From Flavobacterium taihuense (lineage in GTDB: Bacteria; Bacteroidota; Bacteroidia; Flavobacteriales; Flavobacteriaceae): DNA of 64,000 nucleotides. The position numbers and the translations under genes are program-made. Positions 19,046 to 63,755 of the stretch are shown here, piece by piece. A model generated the notes under the pieces. That model saw only the letters and a program-made list of their open reading frames with translations. It did not search any database and was not told the DNA's origin. The stretch spans positions 310,001 to 374,000 of the forward strand of contig NZ_JAHWYN010000002.1 of the NCBI RefSeq assembly GCF_019351435.1, given 5' to 3'. Position 1 is the first letter of the stretch, and each line of letters begins with the position of its first letter.

Positions 19046-19127
19046 GGAGCTATTTCCCGCTTTTCGTTTCAATCTTTTTTTCGGCGAAAAGCCTCAAAAA
19101 AGGATTTTCACTTCAATCGGGGCTAGG
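19046..19127 (-). repeat. Family B intergenic hairpin repeat, copy B1
   Basis: Read on the minus strand it begins CCTAGCCCCGATTG and ends GGGAAATAGCTCC, with AATCCTTTTTT and AAAAAAAGATT flanking a variable tip (GGCTTTTCGCC). It is the most diverged of four copies (others at 28610, 37117, 56455). The CCCG/CGGG pair near the base of the stem is kept. Confidence 0.8.
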
Positions 19128-19155
19128 TGTTCTCGTTTCCATAATTTAATTTATC

Positions 19156-28592: not shown

Positions 28593-28609
28593 TCTTTTTA
28601 ACCGAAATA

Positions 28610-28691
28610 CCTAGCCCAGATAGCAATGGAAATCCTTTATTGTTTTTCTTTAAAACAATAAAGATTGCAACGAATAGCTGGAAAAAGCTCC
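28610..28691 (+). repeat. Family B intergenic hairpin repeat, copy B2
   Basis: Begins CCTAGCCCAGATAGC, ends TAGCTGGAAAAAGCTCC. Tip hairpin TTATTGTTTT/AAAACAATAA around TCTTT is perfect and unlike the tips of other copies. The basal pair is CCAG/CTGG where B1 and B4 have CCCG/CGGG, a compensated change. The rest of the 266-bp gap to the A2M gene shows no gene. Confidence 0.82.
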
Positions 28692-37092: not shown

Positions 37093-37116
37093 TTGATGTT
37101 TTTGGAAACGAAATGT

Positions 37117-37196
37117 CCTAGCCCAGATAGAAGCGGCATCCTTTTTCTGGCTTCTTTAGCCAGGAAAAGATATAGCGGATAGCTGGAAATAGCTCC
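37117..37196 (+). repeat. Family B intergenic hairpin repeat, copy B3
   Basis: Begins CCTAGCCCAGATAGAAGCGG, ends GATAGCTGGAAATAGCTCC. Tip hairpin CTGGCT/AGCCAG around TCTTT. Basal pair CCAG/CTGG as in B2. Lies between the convergent pbpC and rng genes, upstream of their shared terminator. Confidence 0.85.
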
Positions 37197-56454: not shown

Positions 56455-56532
56455 GGAGCTAATCCCGCTATCCGCTATATCTTTTTCCGTGCAAAAAAGC
56501 ACGAAAAAAGGATGCCGCTACTATCGGGGCTA
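56455..56532 (-). repeat. Family B intergenic hairpin repeat, copy B4
   Basis: Minus orientation: begins TAGCCCCGATAGTAGCGG, ends GATAGCGGGATTAGCTCC. Tip hairpin CGTGC/GCACG around TTTTTT. Basal pair CCCG/CGGG. Between divergent ahcY and the phosphopantetheinyl transferase gene; no promoter is obvious in the 228-bp gap. Confidence 0.85.
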
Positions 56533-56552
56533 AAAATCACCACAACAACATC

Positions 56553-57209
56553 ATGCCATTATACAAAGCCATAGTCTTAAATCCATCTACCCAAATCCTC
56601 GTTTGGGAAATAACCGAATCTTATCAGGAGCTTTTTGAGGCAGTCGTTCTCAATGATAGTAATATGAATCGATTGAACGGCATGAAGTCCGAAATACATC
56701 AACGTGCTTTCTTAAGTGTTCGCAAACTGTTTCAGATAGCAGGTTACACGGATTTTGATTTGTATTATGACGAATTCGGAAAACCGCATTTGCATGATGG
56801 TAAACATATTTCAATTACCCATTCCCATCAATTTTCGGCCATTATTTTAAGTGATGAAGTGGTTGGAATCGATATCGAACTACAACGCGAAAAAATCATC
56901 CGCATTGCCGATAAATTCGCCGATACAGAGTTTTCTTTTTTAAATCCAGACGAAAAAACAGAATACATTAGAAAGCTAACCGTGATTTGGGGTGTCAAAG
57001 AAGCGATATTTAAAATTAGAAACGAAAAAGGAATTAGTTTCAGAGATCATATTAAAGTCGAAGCTTTTGAAATGAACGATCTGAAAACCAAAAGCGAACT
57101 TCACTTTGACAGTATAATCAAAGAGTTTAATGTATGTTTTGAAGAATTTGAATCAAAAGACAATAATGGTTTAGAACAAAATTTCACTCTGGTTTATGCT
57201 TTTGAATAA
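56553..57209 (+). CDS. 4'-Phosphopantetheinyl transferase superfamily protein
   Basis: 218 residues, Sfp-like. The two signature motifs are VVGIDIELQREKI (about 109-121; Mg and CoA binding Asp/Glu) and VIWGVKEAIFKI (about 147-158; W-x-x-KEA). An N-terminal half (about 1-100) with HISITHSHQFSAII carries the conserved S-H pair. It transfers phosphopantetheine from CoA to carrier proteins of fatty-acid, polyketide or non-ribosomal pathways. No carrier-protein gene is adjacent. GGGP synthase follows 65 bp downstream. Confidence 0.85.
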   Translation: MPLYKAIVLNPSTQILVWEITESYQELFEAVVLNDSNMNRLNGMKSEIHQRAFLSVRKLFQIAGYTDFDLYYDEFGKPHLHDGKHISITHSHQFSAIILSDEVVGIDIELQREKIIRIADKFADTEFSFLNPDEKTEYIRKLTVIWGVKEAIFKIRNEKGISFRDHIKVEAFEMNDLKTKSELHFDSIIKEFNVCFEEFESKDNNGLEQNFTLVYAFE

Positions 57210-57274: not shown

Positions 57275-58018
57275 ATGACAAATATTTATAATGCTATAAT
57301 TCAGGCCAAAACGGAAAAACGAAAATTACTTGCCATTCTTCTCGATCCCGATAAAATTGTTTGGGAAAATTTGGGATATTTAATCGAAAAAATTAATCAA
57401 TCACCTGCAACACATATTTTCATTGGCGGAAGTCATGTTCAAAATAATATTTTGGATGAATTGATCATTCGTCTAAAACAATTCCCCCCTTTAGTAGATC
57501 GAGGGGTTTTGCCTATTGTCCTTTTTCCTGGAAATCCATCTCAGATTTCTGCCCACGCAGATGCAATTCTATTTCTTTCCTTAATATCAGGCCGGAACCC
57601 CGATTATCTGATAGAGCATCAAGTAGATGCAGTGCCAATTTTGAAAAAAACTGAACTCGAAATTATTTCGACAGGTTATATGTTAATCGAAAGTGGCAGT
57701 GAAACAGCTGTGGCCAGAGTGAGTAACACTAAACCATTGGACAGAAATAATAGCGATTATGCGATGCACACCGCCCAAGCAGGGGAAATGTTGGGACATA
57801 AACTCATTTATCTCGAAGCGGGAAGTGGTGCAAAAAAAGCAGTTCCTTTTGAAATGATAAAAAAAGTATCAAATAATATTGAAATTCCTCTAATTGTTGG
57901 TGGCGGAATTATAGATTTGCAAGGCATTCAAAAAGCCTACGAAGCTGGAGCCGATTTGGTAGTTATTGGTACCGCTTTTGAAAATGATCATAATTTTTTT
58001 GAATCAAGCCCAATCTAA
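57275..58018 (+). CDS. Geranylgeranylglyceryl/heptaprenylglyceryl phosphate synthase family
   Basis: 247 residues, a TIM-barrel PcrB/GGGPS enzyme. Landmark motifs: LLAILLDPDKIVW near 18-30 (Asp binds Mg), THIFIGGSHVQ near 46-56, HKLIYLEAGSGAKKAVP near 176-192 and PLIVGGGIIDLQGIQKAYEAGADLVVIGT split over about 206-234 (phosphate loops). It joins a polyprenyl diphosphate to sn-glycerol-1-phosphate, making an archaeal-type ether lipid precursor. GGGPS homologues are known in Bacteroidota. No G1P dehydrogenase gene is in the window. Upstream of pnuC by 29 bp, probably the same transcript. Confidence 0.88.
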   Translation: MTNIYNAIIQAKTEKRKLLAILLDPDKIVWENLGYLIEKINQSPATHIFIGGSHVQNNILDELIIRLKQFPPLVDRGVLPIVLFPGNPSQISAHADAILFLSLISGRNPDYLIEHQVDAVPILKKTELEIISTGYMLIESGSETAVARVSNTKPLDRNNSDYAMHTAQAGEMLGHKLIYLEAGSGAKKAVPFEMIKKVSNNIEIPLIVGGGIIDLQGIQKAYEAGADLVVIGTAFENDHNFFESSPI

Positions 58019-58047: not shown

Positions 58048-58683
58048 ATGTTAGACTATTTTTTTTCCCAATACAAAGGTTACCCGATTCACGAAGTTTA
58101 CTTAGAATTGATTGGCGTTTTTTTTGGCCTTTGGAGTGTTTGGTGTGCCAAGAAAGACAATATTTGGGTTTTTCCAACGGGTTTAATTAGTACGTCTATA
58201 TATGCTTATTTGCTTTGGCAATGGAGTTTATTGGGAGATTCCATGATTAATGTGTATTATTTTATAATGAGTATTTATGGGTGGTATCACTGGACGCGAA
58301 AAAAAGGGGATGTCGATGAATTTCCAGTATCTGTGATGACTAATAAGGAAAAAGTGATGGCGGTTGTTATTTTTGTATTGACCCTCATTTTTGTAATTAT
58401 AGTCTATCTTTATTTTAATAAATTTGCAAGCTGGTATTCGTACGTTGATACCTTTTTGACTGCAATATTTTTTGTGGGTATGTGGTTGATGGCCAAAAGA
58501 AAAATTGAAAATTGGATTTTTTGGATTGTAGGAGATTTACTTTCCATACCGCTTTATTTTACAAAAGGTTATACTTTTACCTGTTTTCAATATATAATAT
58601 TTACAATTATTGCCGTTTATGGCTATTTAGAATGGAAGAAAATCTTGAACAGCTCGCAAAATCTGGAGCTTCGCCAATTATAA
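58048..58683 (+). CDS. pnuC: PnuC-family transporter (nicotinamide riboside or related vitamin)
   Basis: 211 residues with seven hydrophobic segments. Family features include WSVWCAKKDNIWVFPTGLIS (about 31-50, the N-x-W-x-FP motif), SMINVYYFIMSIYGWYHW (about 66-83, the conserved WYxW) and WIFWIVGDLLSIPLYFTKG. PnuC carriers take up nicotinamide riboside; close relatives PnuT carry thiamine in Bacteroidota. It overlaps the NadR-like kinase gene by 52 bp, which supports nicotinamide riboside and trapping by phosphorylation, but the TPP-riboswitch receptor 2.9 kb downstream leaves thiamine open. Confidence 0.87.
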   Translation: MLDYFFSQYKGYPIHEVYLELIGVFFGLWSVWCAKKDNIWVFPTGLISTSIYAYLLWQWSLLGDSMINVYYFIMSIYGWYHWTRKKGDVDEFPVSVMTNKEKVMAVVIFVLTLIFVIIVYLYFNKFASWYSYVDTFLTAIFFVGMWLMAKRKIENWIFWIVGDLLSIPLYFTKGYTFTCFQYIIFTIIAVYGYLEWKKILNSSQNLELRQL

Positions 58684-60758
58684 AAATTGCCATTTTTGGA
58701 CCAGAATCTACTGGAAAAACTACTTTGGCAACACAACTAGCCGAATATTATAAAACGGTTTGGGTTCCCGAATTCGCACGTGATTATCTACAGGAAAAAT
58801 TAGATAGCGGTCGCGGTATTTGTGATATTGATGATATGTTGCCTATTGCATATGGACAAACCAAATTGGAAAACGAAAGTGCCTTAATTGCGAATAAGTA
58901 TCTTTTTTGTGATACAAATTTGTTGGTAACCAAAGTGTTTTCTGAATTGTATTATAATTTTTGTGATTCATTATTGGATAAAGCGGCGCGTGCCCATCAA
59001 TATGATTTGTTTTTCTTGACAGATATAGATGTGCCATGGGAAGATGATGGTTTGAGAGACAGTCCAGAGGGAAGAGAAAGTGTTTTTGAGGTATTCAAAC
59101 AATCGTTGATTGATAATAAAAAACCTTTTATTACCATTTCAGGTGATAAAGAAACCCGTTTAAAGAAAGCAGTTGCAATCATTGAGGATTTGACGATGGC
59201 TTTTCAGATGGGGTTTACTTCTCTTGATTTTTTACAAATTTATGAACATGGTGTTCCTTTAGAAAATATAAAAACACAGTTTGATATTTTTAAAAAAGGA
59301 ATTCAAAAAAGTGTTCTGGTCAATCCAGCGACTTTAAATAATGGAATCCTAAAATTATCAGATGCCGATTTTGAACAAAAAGCTAATTATTTTGATGCTA
59401 ATATATCAAAACTAAAACTAAAGAAATTTGTTCCGGCTTCTGGTGCGGCAACAAGAATGTTTAAGTTTTTGAGTGCTTTTTTGAATGAGTTTGATTTTGA
59501 AAATGAAAGTATCAATGCCTACATCAATAGAAAAAAAGATACTGAACTGGCTCTTTTTATTATTGGAATGGATAAATTCCCATTTTTTGAAGCTGTAGAT
59601 AAAAAACTGAAGGAAATATATCCCGATTTTAATACTTTGGGGCGTGATTATAAAAATTATTATTTTATTAAGACTCTCTTGTCTCCAGAATATTTCGACT
59701 TTGCCAATAAGCCAAAAGGTATCCTTCCATTTCATAAATATGCAACTCATATAGCACCTCCTATTCAGGAACACTTGTATGAATGTGCGTTTTATGCCAC
59801 TTCAAATAATCAGTCCAATTTGCATTTGACGGTTTCCGAAAATCATCAAGCGCAATTTGAGGAAATTATTGAAAATGTAAAAGGAGAAATTGAGTCTAAA
59901 TCAAATTCAACAATAGCAGTCAGTTATTCGTATCAAAAGAAAGAAACCGACACCGTTGCTGTTGACAATGAAAATAAGCCTTTTCGAAATGAAAAAGGGA
60001 TGCTGGTCTTTAGGCCTGGAGGTCATGGCGCTTTGATAGAGAATTTAAATGCAATTGACGCCGATGTTGTTTTTATAAAAAATATTGATAATGTAAGTCA
60101 AAATAACATTAAACAGATTTCTTTTTATAAGAAAGCATTAGCAGGTGTCCTGATAGAGTTACAACATCAGATTTTTGAATATTTGAAAGCATTGGAGAAT
60201 CATGAAATCAGTTCAGAAAAAATAAGTGAAATTTTAGTTTTTCTGAAAAAGCAATTAAATATCGAGTTAAATGATGATTTTCATAAATTCAAATTGAAAA
60301 ACCAAATCAGAAAATTAAAGGAAATGCTAGACAAGCCTATCAGAGTTTGTGGAATGGTAAAAAATGAAGGAGAACCGGGTGGTGGCCCATTTTGGGTAAG
60401 GGGAATGGATGGAGAATTGACGTTGCAAATTGTTGAGACTTCACAGATTGATTTGAATAATGCTGCACAATTGAAAATTCTGGGTAATGCTACTCATTTT
60501 AATCCAGTGGATTTAGTTTGCGGATTGAAGAATTATCAAAACCAAAAATTCGATTTAAAGGAGTTTGTAGATCCTAATAGTGGCTTTATAGTGCATAAAA
60601 ATAGTGGAGGAATGGATTTAAAAGCCTATGAATTACCTGGTTTATGGAATGGAGCGATGGCCAATTGGCTGACTGTTTTTGTAGAGGTTCCTTTGTTTAC
60701 TTTTAGTCCTGTAAAAACTGTAAATGATTTATTAAAACCAGCACATCAACCGATATAA
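58632..60758 (+). CDS. Fusion protein: NadR-like nucleoside kinase + DUF4301
   Basis: 708 residues from the ATG at 58632 (inside pnuC by 52 bp). Residues 1-190 are a NadR-type P-loop kinase: GPESTGKTTLATQLAEYY (23-40, Walker A), WVPEFARDYLQE, FLTDIDVPWEDDGLRD. From about 193 on it is DUF4301 (516 residues): LQIYEHGVPLENIKTQ, KKFVPASGAATRMFKFL (about 257-273, reminiscent of nucleotidyltransferase GxGTRM loops), VFRPGGHGALIENLN (about 457-471), CGMVKNEGEPGGGPFWV. Two in-frame ATGs at the junction (59196, 59208) suggest former separate genes now without a stop between. Co-transcribed with pnuC and the ArfB-like gene. Probable role in nicotinamide riboside or other vitamin salvage; the DUF4301 reaction is unknown. 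Confidence 0.85.
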   Translation: MEENLEQLAKSGASPIIKIAIFGPESTGKTTLATQLAEYYKTVWVPEFARDYLQEKLDSGRGICDIDDMLPIAYGQTKLENESALIANKYLFCDTNLLVTKVFSELYYNFCDSLLDKAARAHQYDLFFLTDIDVPWEDDGLRDSPEGRESVFEVFKQSLIDNKKPFITISGDKETRLKKAVAIIEDLTMAFQMGFTSLDFLQIYEHGVPLENIKTQFDIFKKGIQKSVLVNPATLNNGILKLSDADFEQKANYFDANISKLKLKKFVPASGAATRMFKFLSAFLNEFDFENESINAYINRKKDTELALFIIGMDKFPFFEAVDKKLKEIYPDFNTLGRDYKNYYFIKTLLSPEYFDFANKPKGILPFHKYATHIAPPIQEHLYECAFYATSNNQSNLHLTVSENHQAQFEEIIENVKGEIESKSNSTIAVSYSYQKKETDTVAVDNENKPFRNEKGMLVFRPGGHGALIENLNAIDADVVFIKNIDNVSQNNIKQISFYKKALAGVLIELQHQIFEYLKALENHEISSEKISEILVFLKKQLNIELNDDFHKFKLKNQIRKLKEMLDKPIRVCGMVKNEGEPGGGPFWVRGMDGELTLQIVETSQIDLNNAAQLKILGNATHFNPVDLVCGLKNYQNQKFDLKEFVDPNSGFIVHKNSGGMDLKAYELPGLWNGAMANWLTVFVEVPLFTFSPVKTVNDLLKPAHQPI

Positions 60759-60759
60759 A

Positions 60760-61161
60760 GTGGAAATCCAAACTATCCTCTCAGAGGTGAAATATAAGGC
60801 AGTAAGAAGCAGTGGTGCCGGTGGACAAAACGTGAATAAAGTTTCGTCCAAAGTAGTGCTGACTTTTGATTTGCATAATTCACAGGCATTTTCAGATGAG
60901 GAGAAATTGTTGCTGGAAACCAATTTACAGAACCGTCTAACAACAGATTTGATTTTGGTTTTAAACTGCGATGAAGATAGAAGTCAACTAAAAAACAAGG
61001 AAATCATCACTAAACGGTTTTTGGAAATTCTAAAAAAAGGATTGTATGTTCCCAAAGAGCGTAAGGCTACCAAAATTCCAAAATCTGTTATTCGAAAAAG
61101 AATCAAGGATAAAAAAAATGTATCTGAGATAAAGAAAACAAGAAGGAAACCAGAGTTTTAG
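60760..61161 (+). CDS. arfB: ArfB/YaeJ-type alternative ribosome-rescue peptidyl-tRNA hydrolase
   Basis: 133 residues, GTG start 1 bp after the preceding stop codon. The release-factor GGQ motif lies in SSGAGGQNVNKVSSKV (18-33), and the C-terminal tail is strongly basic (KEIITKRFLEILKK, then KERKATKIPKS and KKTRRKPEF), as needed to enter the mRNA channel of stalled ribosomes. It hydrolyses peptidyl-tRNA on non-stop complexes. Its tight placement after the kinase-DUF4301 gene indicates co-transcription, although no functional link is known. Confidence 0.9.
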   Translation: MEIQTILSEVKYKAVRSSGAGGQNVNKVSSKVVLTFDLHNSQAFSDEEKLLLETNLQNRLTTDLILVLNCDEDRSQLKNKEIITKRFLEILKKGLYVPKERKATKIPKSVIRKRIKDKKNVSEIKKTRRKPEF

Positions 61162-61171
61162 AATTATGGTT

Positions 61172-61341
61172 AAAGTATTAAGATGGAAGAATTAAGTATT
61201 AAGACAAATGTATTGGGTATTTTAGAGGTACAGTCTAAAAATACCCAATGTTTTTTTCTATAATATCAAATTTTATCAGCTACAGACTTATTTCTTTGCA
61301 TTGAAAAATCTTAATACTTAATTCTTCCATCTTAATACTTT
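61172..61341. repeat. 33-bp perfect inverted repeat flanking a terminator
   Basis: Left arm 61172-61204 (starts AAAGTATTAAGATGGAAG), right arm 61309-61341, exact reverse complement over 33 bp. Each arm contains the unit AAGTATTAAGA twice. The 104-bp interior contains the terminator at 61209. The right arm overlies the -33 region of the TPP-riboswitch promoter. Confidence 0.85.
61209..61258 (+). terminator. Terminator after arfB
   Basis: ATTGGGTATTTTAGA (from about 61211) pairs with TCTAAAAATACCCAAT (to about 61249) around a short loop, followed by a run of T. It lies inside the 33-bp inverted repeat. Confidence 0.8.
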
Positions 61342-61354: not shown

Positions 61355-61359
61355 CACTG

Positions 61360-61434
61360 TCTCAAAGGGGTGCTCCAAATAACGAGCTGAGATCATACCC
61401 AAAGAACCTGGGCGGGTAATGCTGCCAAGGGAAA
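61360..61434 (+). ncRNA. TPP (THI-box) riboswitch
   Basis: All THI-box landmarks are in order: AAAGGGGTGCTCC (P1/P2 strand), GAGCTGAGATCATACCC (the CUGAGA T-loop core), GAACCTGGGCGGGTAATGC (the conserved ACCUG..GGNUAAUGC), then GCCAAGGGAA closing P1. It binds thiamine pyrophosphate and represses the downstream TonB-dependent receptor. About 105 bases separate it from the ATG; they contain AATTCCCCC close to the start codon, which can pair with the 3' P1 strand (GGGAA) and may be the switching partner. Confidence 0.95.
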
Positions 61435-61538
61435 AAACGACAAAAAATAGCGTGCACACTATCTATTTGTTGTAGAACAATCATTTATTAATTTAAACAA
61501 AAGAATAATTCCCCCTTTTATTCGTAAACTATTTACGG

Positions 61539-63755
61539 ATGAAAATTTCAATTCAATTTATTGGCTTTAAAAAAGTCAGAACGAAAACGGCTCAATTCTC
61601 AAAACGTTTTCTATTTTCTATTTTCTTTACTTTAACATCTTTTCTCTCTTTTTCTCAAGTAAAAGACACTACAAAGATTAATCAACTCGATGAAGTATTG
61701 GTTTCGGCCATACGTGTAACCACAAAAACGCCAGTTACGTTCAGTAATTTGGATAAAAAAGACATCAAGACACGAAATTTAGGTCAAGACATTCCTATTT
61801 TAATGAATTATTTGCCTTCAGTAGTAACAACTTCGGATGCTGGGAATGGTGTTGGTTATACCGGTATTCGTGTGCGTGGTAGTGATGCTACCCGCGTGAA
61901 TGTAACTATCAATGGAATTCCGTACAATGATGCTGAAAGTCAAGGGACATATTGGGTAAACATGCCTGATTTTGCCTCTTCGGTTCAGAGTTTGCAATTG
62001 CAACGTGGAGTAGGGACTTCTACAAATGGGGCTGCAGCTTTTGGGGCTAGTTTGAATATGTTGACCGATTCCTATTCAGATAAGGCTCAGGGTGAAATTT
62101 CCAGTTCCTATGGAAGTTTTAATACATTTAAAAATACCGTAAAATTCAGCACCGGTTTGATGAATGATCATTTTGAAATTGCAGGTCGTTTGTCTGTTTT
62201 GAAATCGGATGGATATATTGACCGTGCGAGTTCTGATTTGAAATCGTATTTCTTGCAAGGAACTTATGTTGGGAAAACAACCTTAATCAAAGCTCTTGCT
62301 TTTGGTGGAACCGAAAAAACATATCAATCTTGGTTTGGTGTTGATGCGGTAACTTTGGAAAGCGACAGAACTTTTAATGCAGCCGGAATGTTTACAGATG
62401 AGTTTGGCAACATTCGTTTTTATGACAATCAAACCGATAATTACCAACAAGACCATTATCAATTGCATTGGAGTGAAAAGATTTCAGAAAACTGGAGCAC
62501 AAACTTAGCATTTCATTATACCAAAGGGAATGGATATTATGAAGAATATCAAGAAGACCAAGATTTTGCTGAATATGGTTTAACACCAATTATAGCAGCG
62601 CCTACTGTAAACACGACTGATCTTGTGCGTCAAAAATGGTTGGATAATGATTTTTACGGAACTACTTTCTCAGCCAATTATAAAAAAGAAAATTGGGATG
62701 TTATTCTCGGTGGTGGATGGAATAAATATGAAGGAGACCATTTTGGAAAAGTTATTTGGGCAAGATATGCTTCGACAAGCGAGTTGGGAGACCATTATTA
62801 TGATGATTTCTCGACGAAAACAGATGGTAATGTTTTTGCAAAAGCAAATTATAAAGTAGCTGATAAATGGAGTTTGTTCGGGGATCTGCAATTGCGAAAT
62901 GTGACTTATAAAGCGAATTCAACAGAAACAGGTTTGGTTGATGATAATTTTAATTTCTTTAATCCGAAAGCGGGAGTGACTTATCAATGGAATGAAATCA
63001 ATAGTTTGTATTTTTCATATGCGAGAGCCAATAGAGAACCTAATAGAACAGATTATGAAAATGGAAGTCCAAAACCTGAAAAGCTAAATGATTTTGAATT
63101 GGGCTGGCGTTATCTTTCGGATAAAATAAAGTTGAATGCCAATGCGTATTATATGAAATACCAAGACCAATTGGTTTTGACTGGAGAGTTGAATGATGTG
63201 GGTGCGCCAATAAGAGCCAATAGCGGTGATAGTTACAGACTTGGTTTGGAATTGGATGCAACTTTTCAGCTTTCGGAAAAATGGGTGTTACAACCGAATG
63301 TGACTTTGAGCCAAAACAAAAACAAAGATTTTTATTTTACAAGAGACGGCGTTTTGCAAAATTTGGGAAACACCAATATTGCTTATTCACCTGATGTTGT
63401 GGCTGGAAATCGTTTAGGATTTACACCTATTAAAGATTTTCAAATATCCTTGTATTCCAAGTTTGTTGGGGAACAGTATATGGCAAACATCGATTCGGAA
63501 GGGTCAAAACTGGATAGTTATTTTGTAAATGACTTGAATGTGTCTTATGAGTTTAAGCCAAAAAGTATATTTAAGTCTATTCTGGTTTCGGCTTTGATTA
63601 ACAATATTTTTGATTTGAAGTATGTGAGTAATGGTTATTTCTATACTTATGATGATGATTACAGCAATCCGCCAGCAATTACAACAATTGAAGGAGCTGG
63701 ATATTATCCTCAAGCGGGGGTTAATTTCTTGATTGGACTGAGCTTGAAGTTTTAG
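61539..63755 (+). CDS. TonB-dependent outer-membrane receptor, thiamine uptake (TPP-regulated)
   Basis: 738 residues. Long signal region (about 1-40, ending FLSFSQ), TonB box-like LDEVLVSAIRVTT (about 49-61), plug domain (to about 180) with VGYTGIRVRGSDATRVNVTINGIPYND split over about 105-131, then a 22-strand barrel ending in GLSLKF with terminal Phe. Control by the TPP riboswitch 105 bp upstream identifies thiamine or a thiamine precursor as the likely ligand, as in other Bacteroidota where TPP-riboswitch TonB receptors pair with PnuT. No SusD partner is adjacent. A family A repeat follows. Confidence 0.93.
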   Translation: MKISIQFIGFKKVRTKTAQFSKRFLFSIFFTLTSFLSFSQVKDTTKINQLDEVLVSAIRVTTKTPVTFSNLDKKDIKTRNLGQDIPILMNYLPSVVTTSDAGNGVGYTGIRVRGSDATRVNVTINGIPYNDAESQGTYWVNMPDFASSVQSLQLQRGVGTSTNGAAAFGASLNMLTDSYSDKAQGEISSSYGSFNTFKNTVKFSTGLMNDHFEIAGRLSVLKSDGYIDRASSDLKSYFLQGTYVGKTTLIKALAFGGTEKTYQSWFGVDAVTLESDRTFNAAGMFTDEFGNIRFYDNQTDNYQQDHYQLHWSEKISENWSTNLAFHYTKGNGYYEEYQEDQDFAEYGLTPIIAAPTVNTTDLVRQKWLDNDFYGTTFSANYKKENWDVILGGGWNKYEGDHFGKVIWARYASTSELGDHYYDDFSTKTDGNVFAKANYKVADKWSLFGDLQLRNVTYKANSTETGLVDDNFNFFNPKAGVTYQWNEINSLYFSYARANREPNRTDYENGSPKPEKLNDFELGWRYLSDKIKLNANAYYMKYQDQLVLTGELNDVGAPIRANSGDSYRLGLELDATFQLSEKWVLQPNVTLSQNKNKDFYFTRDGVLQNLGNTNIAYSPDVVAGNRLGFTPIKDFQISLYSKFVGEQYMANIDSEGSKLDSYFVNDLNVSYEFKPKSIFKSILVSALINNIFDLKYVSNGYFYTYDDDYSNPPAITTIEGAGYYPQAGVNFLIGLSLKF

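Follow-up and report, generated by a model that had tools for sequence, protein, structure and literature searches.

Carriers of the PnuC family work by facilitated diffusion and their substrate is trapped by NadR phosphorylation, according to PMC7221760. For Bacteroides, PMC5613172 describes a thiamine operon, OMthi-pnuT-tnr3, in which the TonB gene, pnuT and tnr3 stand together. The present analysis concerns a locus in a 64,000-nucleotide stretch of the Flavobacterium taihuense genome (contig NZ_JAHWYN010000002.1, positions 310,001 to 374,000; hereafter the window), which resembles the Bacteroides operon in having a thiamine pyrophosphate (TPP) riboswitch, a TonB receptor and a Pnu carrier accompanied by a putative thiamine-phosphorylating enzyme. 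It differs in that the carrier is accompanied by a NadR-like kinase joined in one protein to the domain of unknown function DUF4301, in that a thiamine pyrophosphokinase (TPK) is encoded elsewhere in the genome and in that pnuC has no riboswitch in front. The two halves of the fused protein have described relatives of their own, namely the ribosylnicotinamide kinase domains of NadR and the UDPGP family (PF01704) of eukaryotic UDP-glucose, UDP-GlcNAc and UDP-sugar pyrophosphorylases (Ugp1p, AGX1/UAP1, USP). The principal features, in window coordinates, are as follows.

58048..58683, + strand: PnuC-family vitamin transporter, 211 amino acids, ATG start (PF04973, 3.8e-56; TIGR01528); thiamine (PnuT-like) favoured over nicotinamide riboside as the presumed substrate
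58632..59195, + strand: NadR-like (ribosylnicotinamide-kinase-type) kinase half of the fused gene (PF13521; NadR chains 9x6f, 1lw7 and 8x7f; Walker A GPESTGKT)
59196..60758, + strand: DUF4301 half of the fused gene, predicted UDPGP-like fold (PF14134, alignments, AlphaFold and PDB comparisons)
60760..61161, + strand: ArfB-type rescue factor, GTG start, GAGGQ motif (NF006718, 117.6 bits, cut-off 100)
61356..61449, + strand: TPP riboswitch aptamer preceding the gene of the TonB receptor (RF00059, 39.9 bits, E 2e-5)
61539..63755, + strand: TonB-dependent receptor, probably for thiamine, judging from the riboswitch (PF00593, PF07715)

With a chance that we place just above even, this is a flavobacterial thiamine-uptake locus containing an old gene fusion. 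Thiamine would enter through the TonB receptor controlled by the TPP riboswitch, cross the inner membrane through the PnuC-family carrier and be trapped as thiamine monophosphate by the NadR-like kinase half, and ThiL would convert the monophosphate to TPP. In genomes that carry TPK the kinase would be redundant and would often be deleted or decay. The DUF4301 half would be a separate enzyme, predicted to make an NDP-sugar and pyrophosphate from an NTP and a sugar 1-phosphate, and the fusion may have arisen since DUF4301 lay just downstream and not through any action on the kinase product. If the kinase does trap thiamine, it would be a mistake throughout the family to read PnuC-kinase pairs as nicotinamide riboside salvage, as family names suggest, and vitamin-exchange models that rely on those names would have to change. 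Independently of this, DUF4301, a domain of 500 residues and unknown function that is present in 167 of 199 family genomes, gains a predicted fold and predicted catalytic residues. The broader proposal, which we put forward with confidence slightly short of even, is that most Flavobacteriaceae have in this NadR-family kinase their so far unrecognised thiamine kinase, which together with ThiL does the work of TPK and has given way to TPK on several independent occasions, and that DUF4301 represents a branch of the UDP-sugar pyrophosphorylase fold that has gone unrecognised in Bacteroidota.

The fused gene is a single frame from the ATG at 58632 to the TAA ending at 60758 and encodes 708 amino acids, with PF13521 (AAA_28) matching residues 18-176 (1.9e-39) and PF14134 residues 199-706 (3.5e-202). 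An earlier sequence-only reading of the span 58048-61161, which lies upstream of the TPP riboswitch and the TonB gene, had described a 52-bp overlap of pnuC with this gene, an ArfB gene beginning 1 bp after it and two in-frame ATGs at the junction, and had proposed either a recent stop-codon loss or a true fusion. All three details hold: the overlap is at 58632-58683, with the kinase start MEEN inside pnuC and similar starts (MEENL/MEKNL) in relatives that have the same fused frame; the GTG of arfB is at 60760; and the ATGs are at 59196 and 59208. No stop is present near 59195, and relatives carry the same fused frame. The true fusion stands and the recent stop loss does not, because many genomes of the genus share the fused frame and fusions are found again in other genera.

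The frequency of the fusion was obtained from a survey of 61 genus genomes, among them that of the window, with frames counted from the DUF4301 search. Frames of at least 718 residues number 36, those of 512-555 residues 13, and there are two of intermediate length (652 and 671) and two partial matches; DUF4301 is absent from eight genomes. Among 29 loci titled Flavobacterium, Walker A is in frame with DUF4301 in 19 and not in 10, and among 32 further genus loci it is in frame in 17 and not in 15. Only the 61-genome survey gives a fair fused ratio, because these two locus sets share genomes (e.g. L013, L121) and seven of the 32 loci were chosen for a short frame. Across the family DUF4301 occurs mostly in frames of 510-545 residues, and the kinase and DUF4301 are mostly separate adjoining genes in the same order; 40 of 80 named loci have such a separate kinase, none of them titled Flavobacterium, and five other genera that were checked (L108-L112) proved to have in-frame fusions. 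The best match among the named loci is in Flavobacterium granuli (69% identity). The fusion is thus almost certainly real and old. An error of assembly or sequencing that merged two genes into this frame has a negligible chance, being already refuted by the 36 fused-length genus frames and the 19 Flavobacterium-titled loci with Walker A in frame.

Both halves look selected: in a comparison with the closely related L025, the kinase has a dN/dS of about 0.045 (0.048/1.08) and DUF4301 one of about 0.063 (0.095/1.50), rough values with synonymous sites near saturation. A model of the whole fused protein (708 residues, 30 sequences) has a pLDDT of 89.4 and a confident helix, residues 173-192, joining the halves; low confidence is mainly at 131-150 in the kinase half, presumably its lid. 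A Flavobacterium-type fused locus is also found in L138, a metagenome-assembled genome titled Klebsiella pneumoniae, which is probably a mislabelled or contaminated bin.

The kinase half is closest in sequence to NadR, matching the PDB chains 9x6f (1.5e-22), 1lw7 (3.7e-15) and 8x7f, and scores 136 bits with PF13521 (cut-off 27). It shares with the NadR ribosylnicotinamide kinase domain the sequence of a P-loop kinase, the Walker A motif and the W-x-x-D-[DG]-x-R motif, here WEDDGLR in the lid. It differs in having no adenylyltransferase domain, none for nicotinamide mononucleotide (NMN) being found in the kinase half of the fused protein, in adjoining a TonB gene with a TPP riboswitch and in a distribution that tracks TPK. 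The NadR model TIGR01526 gives 97.9 bits against a cut-off of 341.15, with the kinase part alone matching. Searches of the open-licence PMC literature brought up no NadR-like thiamine kinase among the matches listed, and in that literature 'ribosylnicotinamide kinase' does not occur together with 'thiamine kinase'. The window's genome encodes a second AAA_28 protein (L201), which was not counted as NadR-like because it has no tblastn match to the fused kinase.

The distribution of the kinase was compared with that of TPK in 199 family genomes, almost every one from a different genus and some of them incomplete. The kinase is missing from 13 and present in 186, and TPK is present in 18, that is, in seven of the 13 genomes without the kinase and in 11 of the 186 with it, the remaining 175 having the kinase and no TPK. 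Absence of the kinase is thus associated with TPK (Fisher p 1.8e-5, by a test that ignores descent). A hand-picked set of 40 genomes was also searched for TPK with PF04263: it is present in all 28 genomes of the genus and in the three farther genomes (G511, G475, G419), and absent from all nine other genomes of the order, every one of which has the NadR-like kinase. Three TPKs that were checked all exceed the TIGR01378 cut-off, and ThiL exceeds its own in 39 of the 40 genomes. The kinase would be redundant in these 28 genus genomes, all of which carry TPK.

Loss or decay of the kinase can be seen at individual loci. The DUF4301 locus was viewed in five of the seven family genomes that have TPK and no kinase; pnuC and DUF4301 are kept in four (L226, L228, L229, L230), and in the fifth (L227) pnuC is gone too. 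Kinase-like remnants broken by stops, as judged by eye, lie in L229 and L227, and the kinase of another TPK-bearing genome (G253, locus L233), which was scored as kinase-bearing, has three in-frame TAA codons. The two genus genes of intermediate length (L022, L027) keep a shrunken N-terminal kinase vestige, with no Walker A, in frame with DUF4301. In five genus loci (L203, L204, L208, L210, L211) the kinase and DUF4301 were not found, DUF4301 being absent from these genomes altogether, and pnuC, arfB, the TPP motif and the TonB gene are present; three genomes (G002, G005, G050) keep PnuC although AAA_28 gives no match above the Pfam cut-off anywhere in them. In many relatives the kinase is lost or decayed with PnuC and DUF4301 kept, and every such loss for which TPK was searched is in a TPK-bearing genome. 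Retention of the carrier after loss of the kinase, the presence of TPK and an adjoining TPP-controlled TonB gene together fit thiamine as the substrate. Three Aquimarina loci (L175, L182, L188) have DUF4301 close behind the gene for an Sfp-like transferase and no match to pnuC, the kinase or arfB.

Separate acquisitions of TPK are likely, because the TPKs of the window's genome and of G101 are 32% identical and the other family TPKs fetched are closer to that of G101. On a quick tree of 63 DUF4301 rows, chosen to be rich in kinase loss and TPK and with two long branches flagged, the kinase-minus, TPK-plus state needs 10 changes, at least six of them forced by well-supported branches.

The carrier and the riboswitch bear on the same question. 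The window's PnuC scores 101 bits with TIGR01528 against an equivalog cut-off of 42.45, matches 4qtn in sequence (1.3e-9) and is the sole PnuC-family match in its genome. The TPP aptamer aligns over its full length, with a score below the Rfam gathering threshold of 54.3, and aptamers of 36-52 bits, likewise below the cut-off, precede TonB genes in four relatives, in the gap between arfB and the TonB gene in L101, L116 and L164 and in that between DUF4301 and the TonB gene in L084. A TonB gene, a Pnu carrier and TPK lie side by side in L216 and L239.

Several observations weigh against thiamine. Both the kinase and TPK are missing from six of the 13 kinase-lacking family genomes (of the two such loci viewed, L231 in G291 has neither pnuC nor a TonB gene in 18 kb and L232 in G275 ends at a contig end), and 11 of the 18 TPK-bearing genomes have both enzymes, the broken kinase of G253 included. 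A paired comparison of kinase loss with TPK along the DUF4301 tree has about one informative pair and no power. No TPP riboswitch lies directly before the window's pnuC, where one would class the carrier as PnuT, or, within an E limit of 0.1, in the vicinity of the free pnuC-kinase pairs of L213-L215. Three genus genomes (G018, G040, G057) have a second PnuC beyond the locus copy, behind a TPP aptamer in G018 and G057, and a thiamine carrier at the locus would therefore be redundant there. The motif WxxWxxxD was rejected as a mark of thiamine because it is shared by the window's PnuC and that of L217, whose gene lies beside a NadR-like two-domain gene (TIGR01526 over residues 1-309, 225.8 bits, cut-off 341.15).

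An alternative is salvage of nicotinamide riboside. The riboside imported by PnuC would be converted to NMN by the kinase half, and a separate NadD-type enzyme would carry NMN on to nicotinamide adenine dinucleotide, with DUF4301 as a passenger and the TPP-TonB unit as a mere neighbour. The characterised relatives of the kinase half are NadR ribosylnicotinamide kinases, the transporter family is named by TIGR01528, the L217 carrier adjoins a gene of NadR layout, and the TPP-controlled PnuC of some genus genomes is the second one, the pnuC of the locus having no riboswitch in front. This alternative leaves unexplained, however, why absence of the kinase is far commoner in TPK-bearing genomes with pnuC kept, and PnuC persists in the three genomes that have no AAA_28 match above the Pfam cut-off; we consider it rather unlikely. 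The combination of PnuC, nicotinamide riboside and Flavobacter does not occur in the open-licence PMC literature. We lean towards thiamine as the substrate of the kinase half, and thiamine is a more likely substrate than nicotinamide riboside.

Other PnuC arrangements were seen in passing. Four genus genomes (at L202, L205, L206 and L209) encode a PnuC of another kind, which shares 32-35% identity with that of the window and has a TPP riboswitch directly upstream, and four genus genomes (G013, G031, G060, G376) have a weaker second PnuC-family match of 61-65 bits in frames of 237-260 amino acids. The adjoining TonB, Pnu carrier and TPK genes of L239 (4353-7828) belong to a family genome without a NadR-like kinase.

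DUF4301 is very probably a UDPGP-like nucleotidyltransferase, as judged from its predicted structure. The AlphaFold model (55 sequences, pLDDT 90.5, pTM 0.89) has UDPGP-family enzymes as all of its first 40 Foldseek matches (best E 3.6e-10; TM 0.34-0.50 by query length), and the fold is shared with that family at VIA Z scores of 17-23 over 302-351 of 520 residues, yeast Ugp1p giving Z 23.4 and an rmsd of 3.4 over 322 residues at 18% identity. The nucleotidyltransferase character that the sequence-only reading had seen in the PASGAATRM loop is borne out by this predicted nucleotidyltransferase-like fold. NMN adenylyltransferases do not appear among the VIA and Foldseek matches shown, an absence that proves nothing.

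Sequence similarity to UDPGP is much fainter. The window's protein has no PF01704 match and lies below the curated Pfam cut-off; PF01704 finds seven of 19 DUF4301 members when E is allowed to reach 10 (best 1.1e-4) and, with E limited to 1, nine of 23 in a more distant set that partly overlaps the first (best 0.0015), and its only match in the 40 genomes is the DUF4301 gene of G305 (5.5e-4, 18.5 bits, cut-off 22). Against PDB sequences, the DUF4301 profile A3 reaches Entamoeba UAP at a weak E of 0.0074 through GHG...NxDN, and DUF4301 profiles reach UGP at 0.51 and 0.89, also weak, through FxPVKTxxDLL; a single-sequence search of PDB chains gave nothing convincing, the best match (0.026) being to a designed protein. 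The conserved motifs are PASGAATRM (residues 268-276 of the fused protein), PKG, RPGGHG, KNIDN and FxPVKTxxDLL, and S82, G83, R87, P173, K174, H277, D298, N299 and K507 (numbered from 59196) are invariant in all 55 rows. The order of the motifs, N-x-D-N and FxPVKTxxDLL are common to both families. We take K507 in FxPVKTxxDLL to correspond to the second catalytic lysine motif of UDPGP, and from motif order and the UDPGP consensus, PASGAATRM is presumably the nucleotide loop and PKG holds the first lysine. DUF4301 differs in that its loop is PASGAATRM where UDPGP has GGxGT, and in having about 85 mostly helical residues between the loop and PKG. PF14134 does not occur in the open-licence PMC literature, and DUF4301 is mentioned there in one paper.

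DUF4301 occurs in 66 of 395 genomes sampled across the phylum, and at 22 distant loci (L061-L082, from other orders, classes and families outside the window's order; mostly 8 kb on each side of DUF4301, L062 and L072 being shorter) the window's proteins matched only DUF4301 by tblastn at E up to 1e-3, with no PnuC or kinase. The sequence-only reading had suggested that DUF4301 could follow the kinase in a route from riboside to mononucleotide to dinucleotide, and this route is not supported, in view of those loci, of the many relatives that lost the kinase and kept DUF4301 and of a kinase distribution that tracks a thiamine enzyme. The related idea that the two halves of the fused protein act in turn on a single substrate, the kinase yielding a mononucleotide to which DUF4301 adds a nucleotide or from which it forms a sugar-nucleotide, could draw on the true fusion with its confidently predicted junction helix, on the fusions in five other genera and on the nucleotidyltransferase-like fold. 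The fold, however, is that of UTP:sugar-1-phosphate enzymes, the distant loci lack both partners, and the genus has 13 short and two intermediate DUF4301 frames without an intact kinase as against 36 fused ones. DUF4301 is kept where the kinase is gone, which makes it unlikely that the halves share a substrate, and we regard the two-step scheme as improbable.

Among the neighbours of DUF4301 at 28 loci (L061-L088) only three other clusters reach five loci (9, 5 and 5); a RelA/SpoT gene is next to DUF4301 in L061-L065, the remaining two clusters are not regularly adjacent, and a Pfam scan of ten neighbours gave no shared theme. At all four loci read in two other families of the order (L083-L086), DUF4301 directly follows a glycogen synthase gene (Glycogen_syn, PF05693). 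Together with the UDPGP fold, this raises the possibility that DUF4301 supplies UDP-glucose or another NDP-sugar for a polysaccharide, for example to a GT3 glycogen synthase, its place beside pnuC and the kinase being historical; such a role concerns DUF4301 alone and is compatible with thiamine uptake. We consider it doubtful: PF05693 occurs in 20 of the 395 phylum genomes (17 over the cut-off), seven of which have DUF4301 and none of which belongs to the window's genus or family, and the glycine-rich loop differs from the UDPGP consensus. As an obligate partner of DUF4301, GT3 glycogen synthase was rejected over the 395 genomes.

The remaining features around the locus in the window are the following.

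56553..57209, + strand: 4'-phosphopantetheinyl transferase (Sfp-like; PF01648), upstream neighbour, its order kept in many relatives
57275..58018, + strand: GGGPS/PcrB-family prenylglyceryl phosphate synthase (PF01884, NF003198), upstream neighbour, often conserved
61173-61204 and 61309-61340, no strand: arms of an exact 32-bp inverted repeat

The order common across the family is Sfp, GGGPS, pnuC, kinase, DUF4301, arfB, TPP motif, TonB gene. GGGPS or arfB is missing from some loci, and in some the TonB gene is several kb distant. The inverted repeat flanks about 100 bp between arfB and the TPP aptamer and has no additional copy in the window at up to three mismatches. PADLOC gave no hits. Four copies of the Flavo-1 RNA (RF01705, 74.6-78.9 bits) are spread over the 64 kb, at 19049-19128 (-), 28609-28688 (+), 37116-37193 (+) and 56457-56535 (-).

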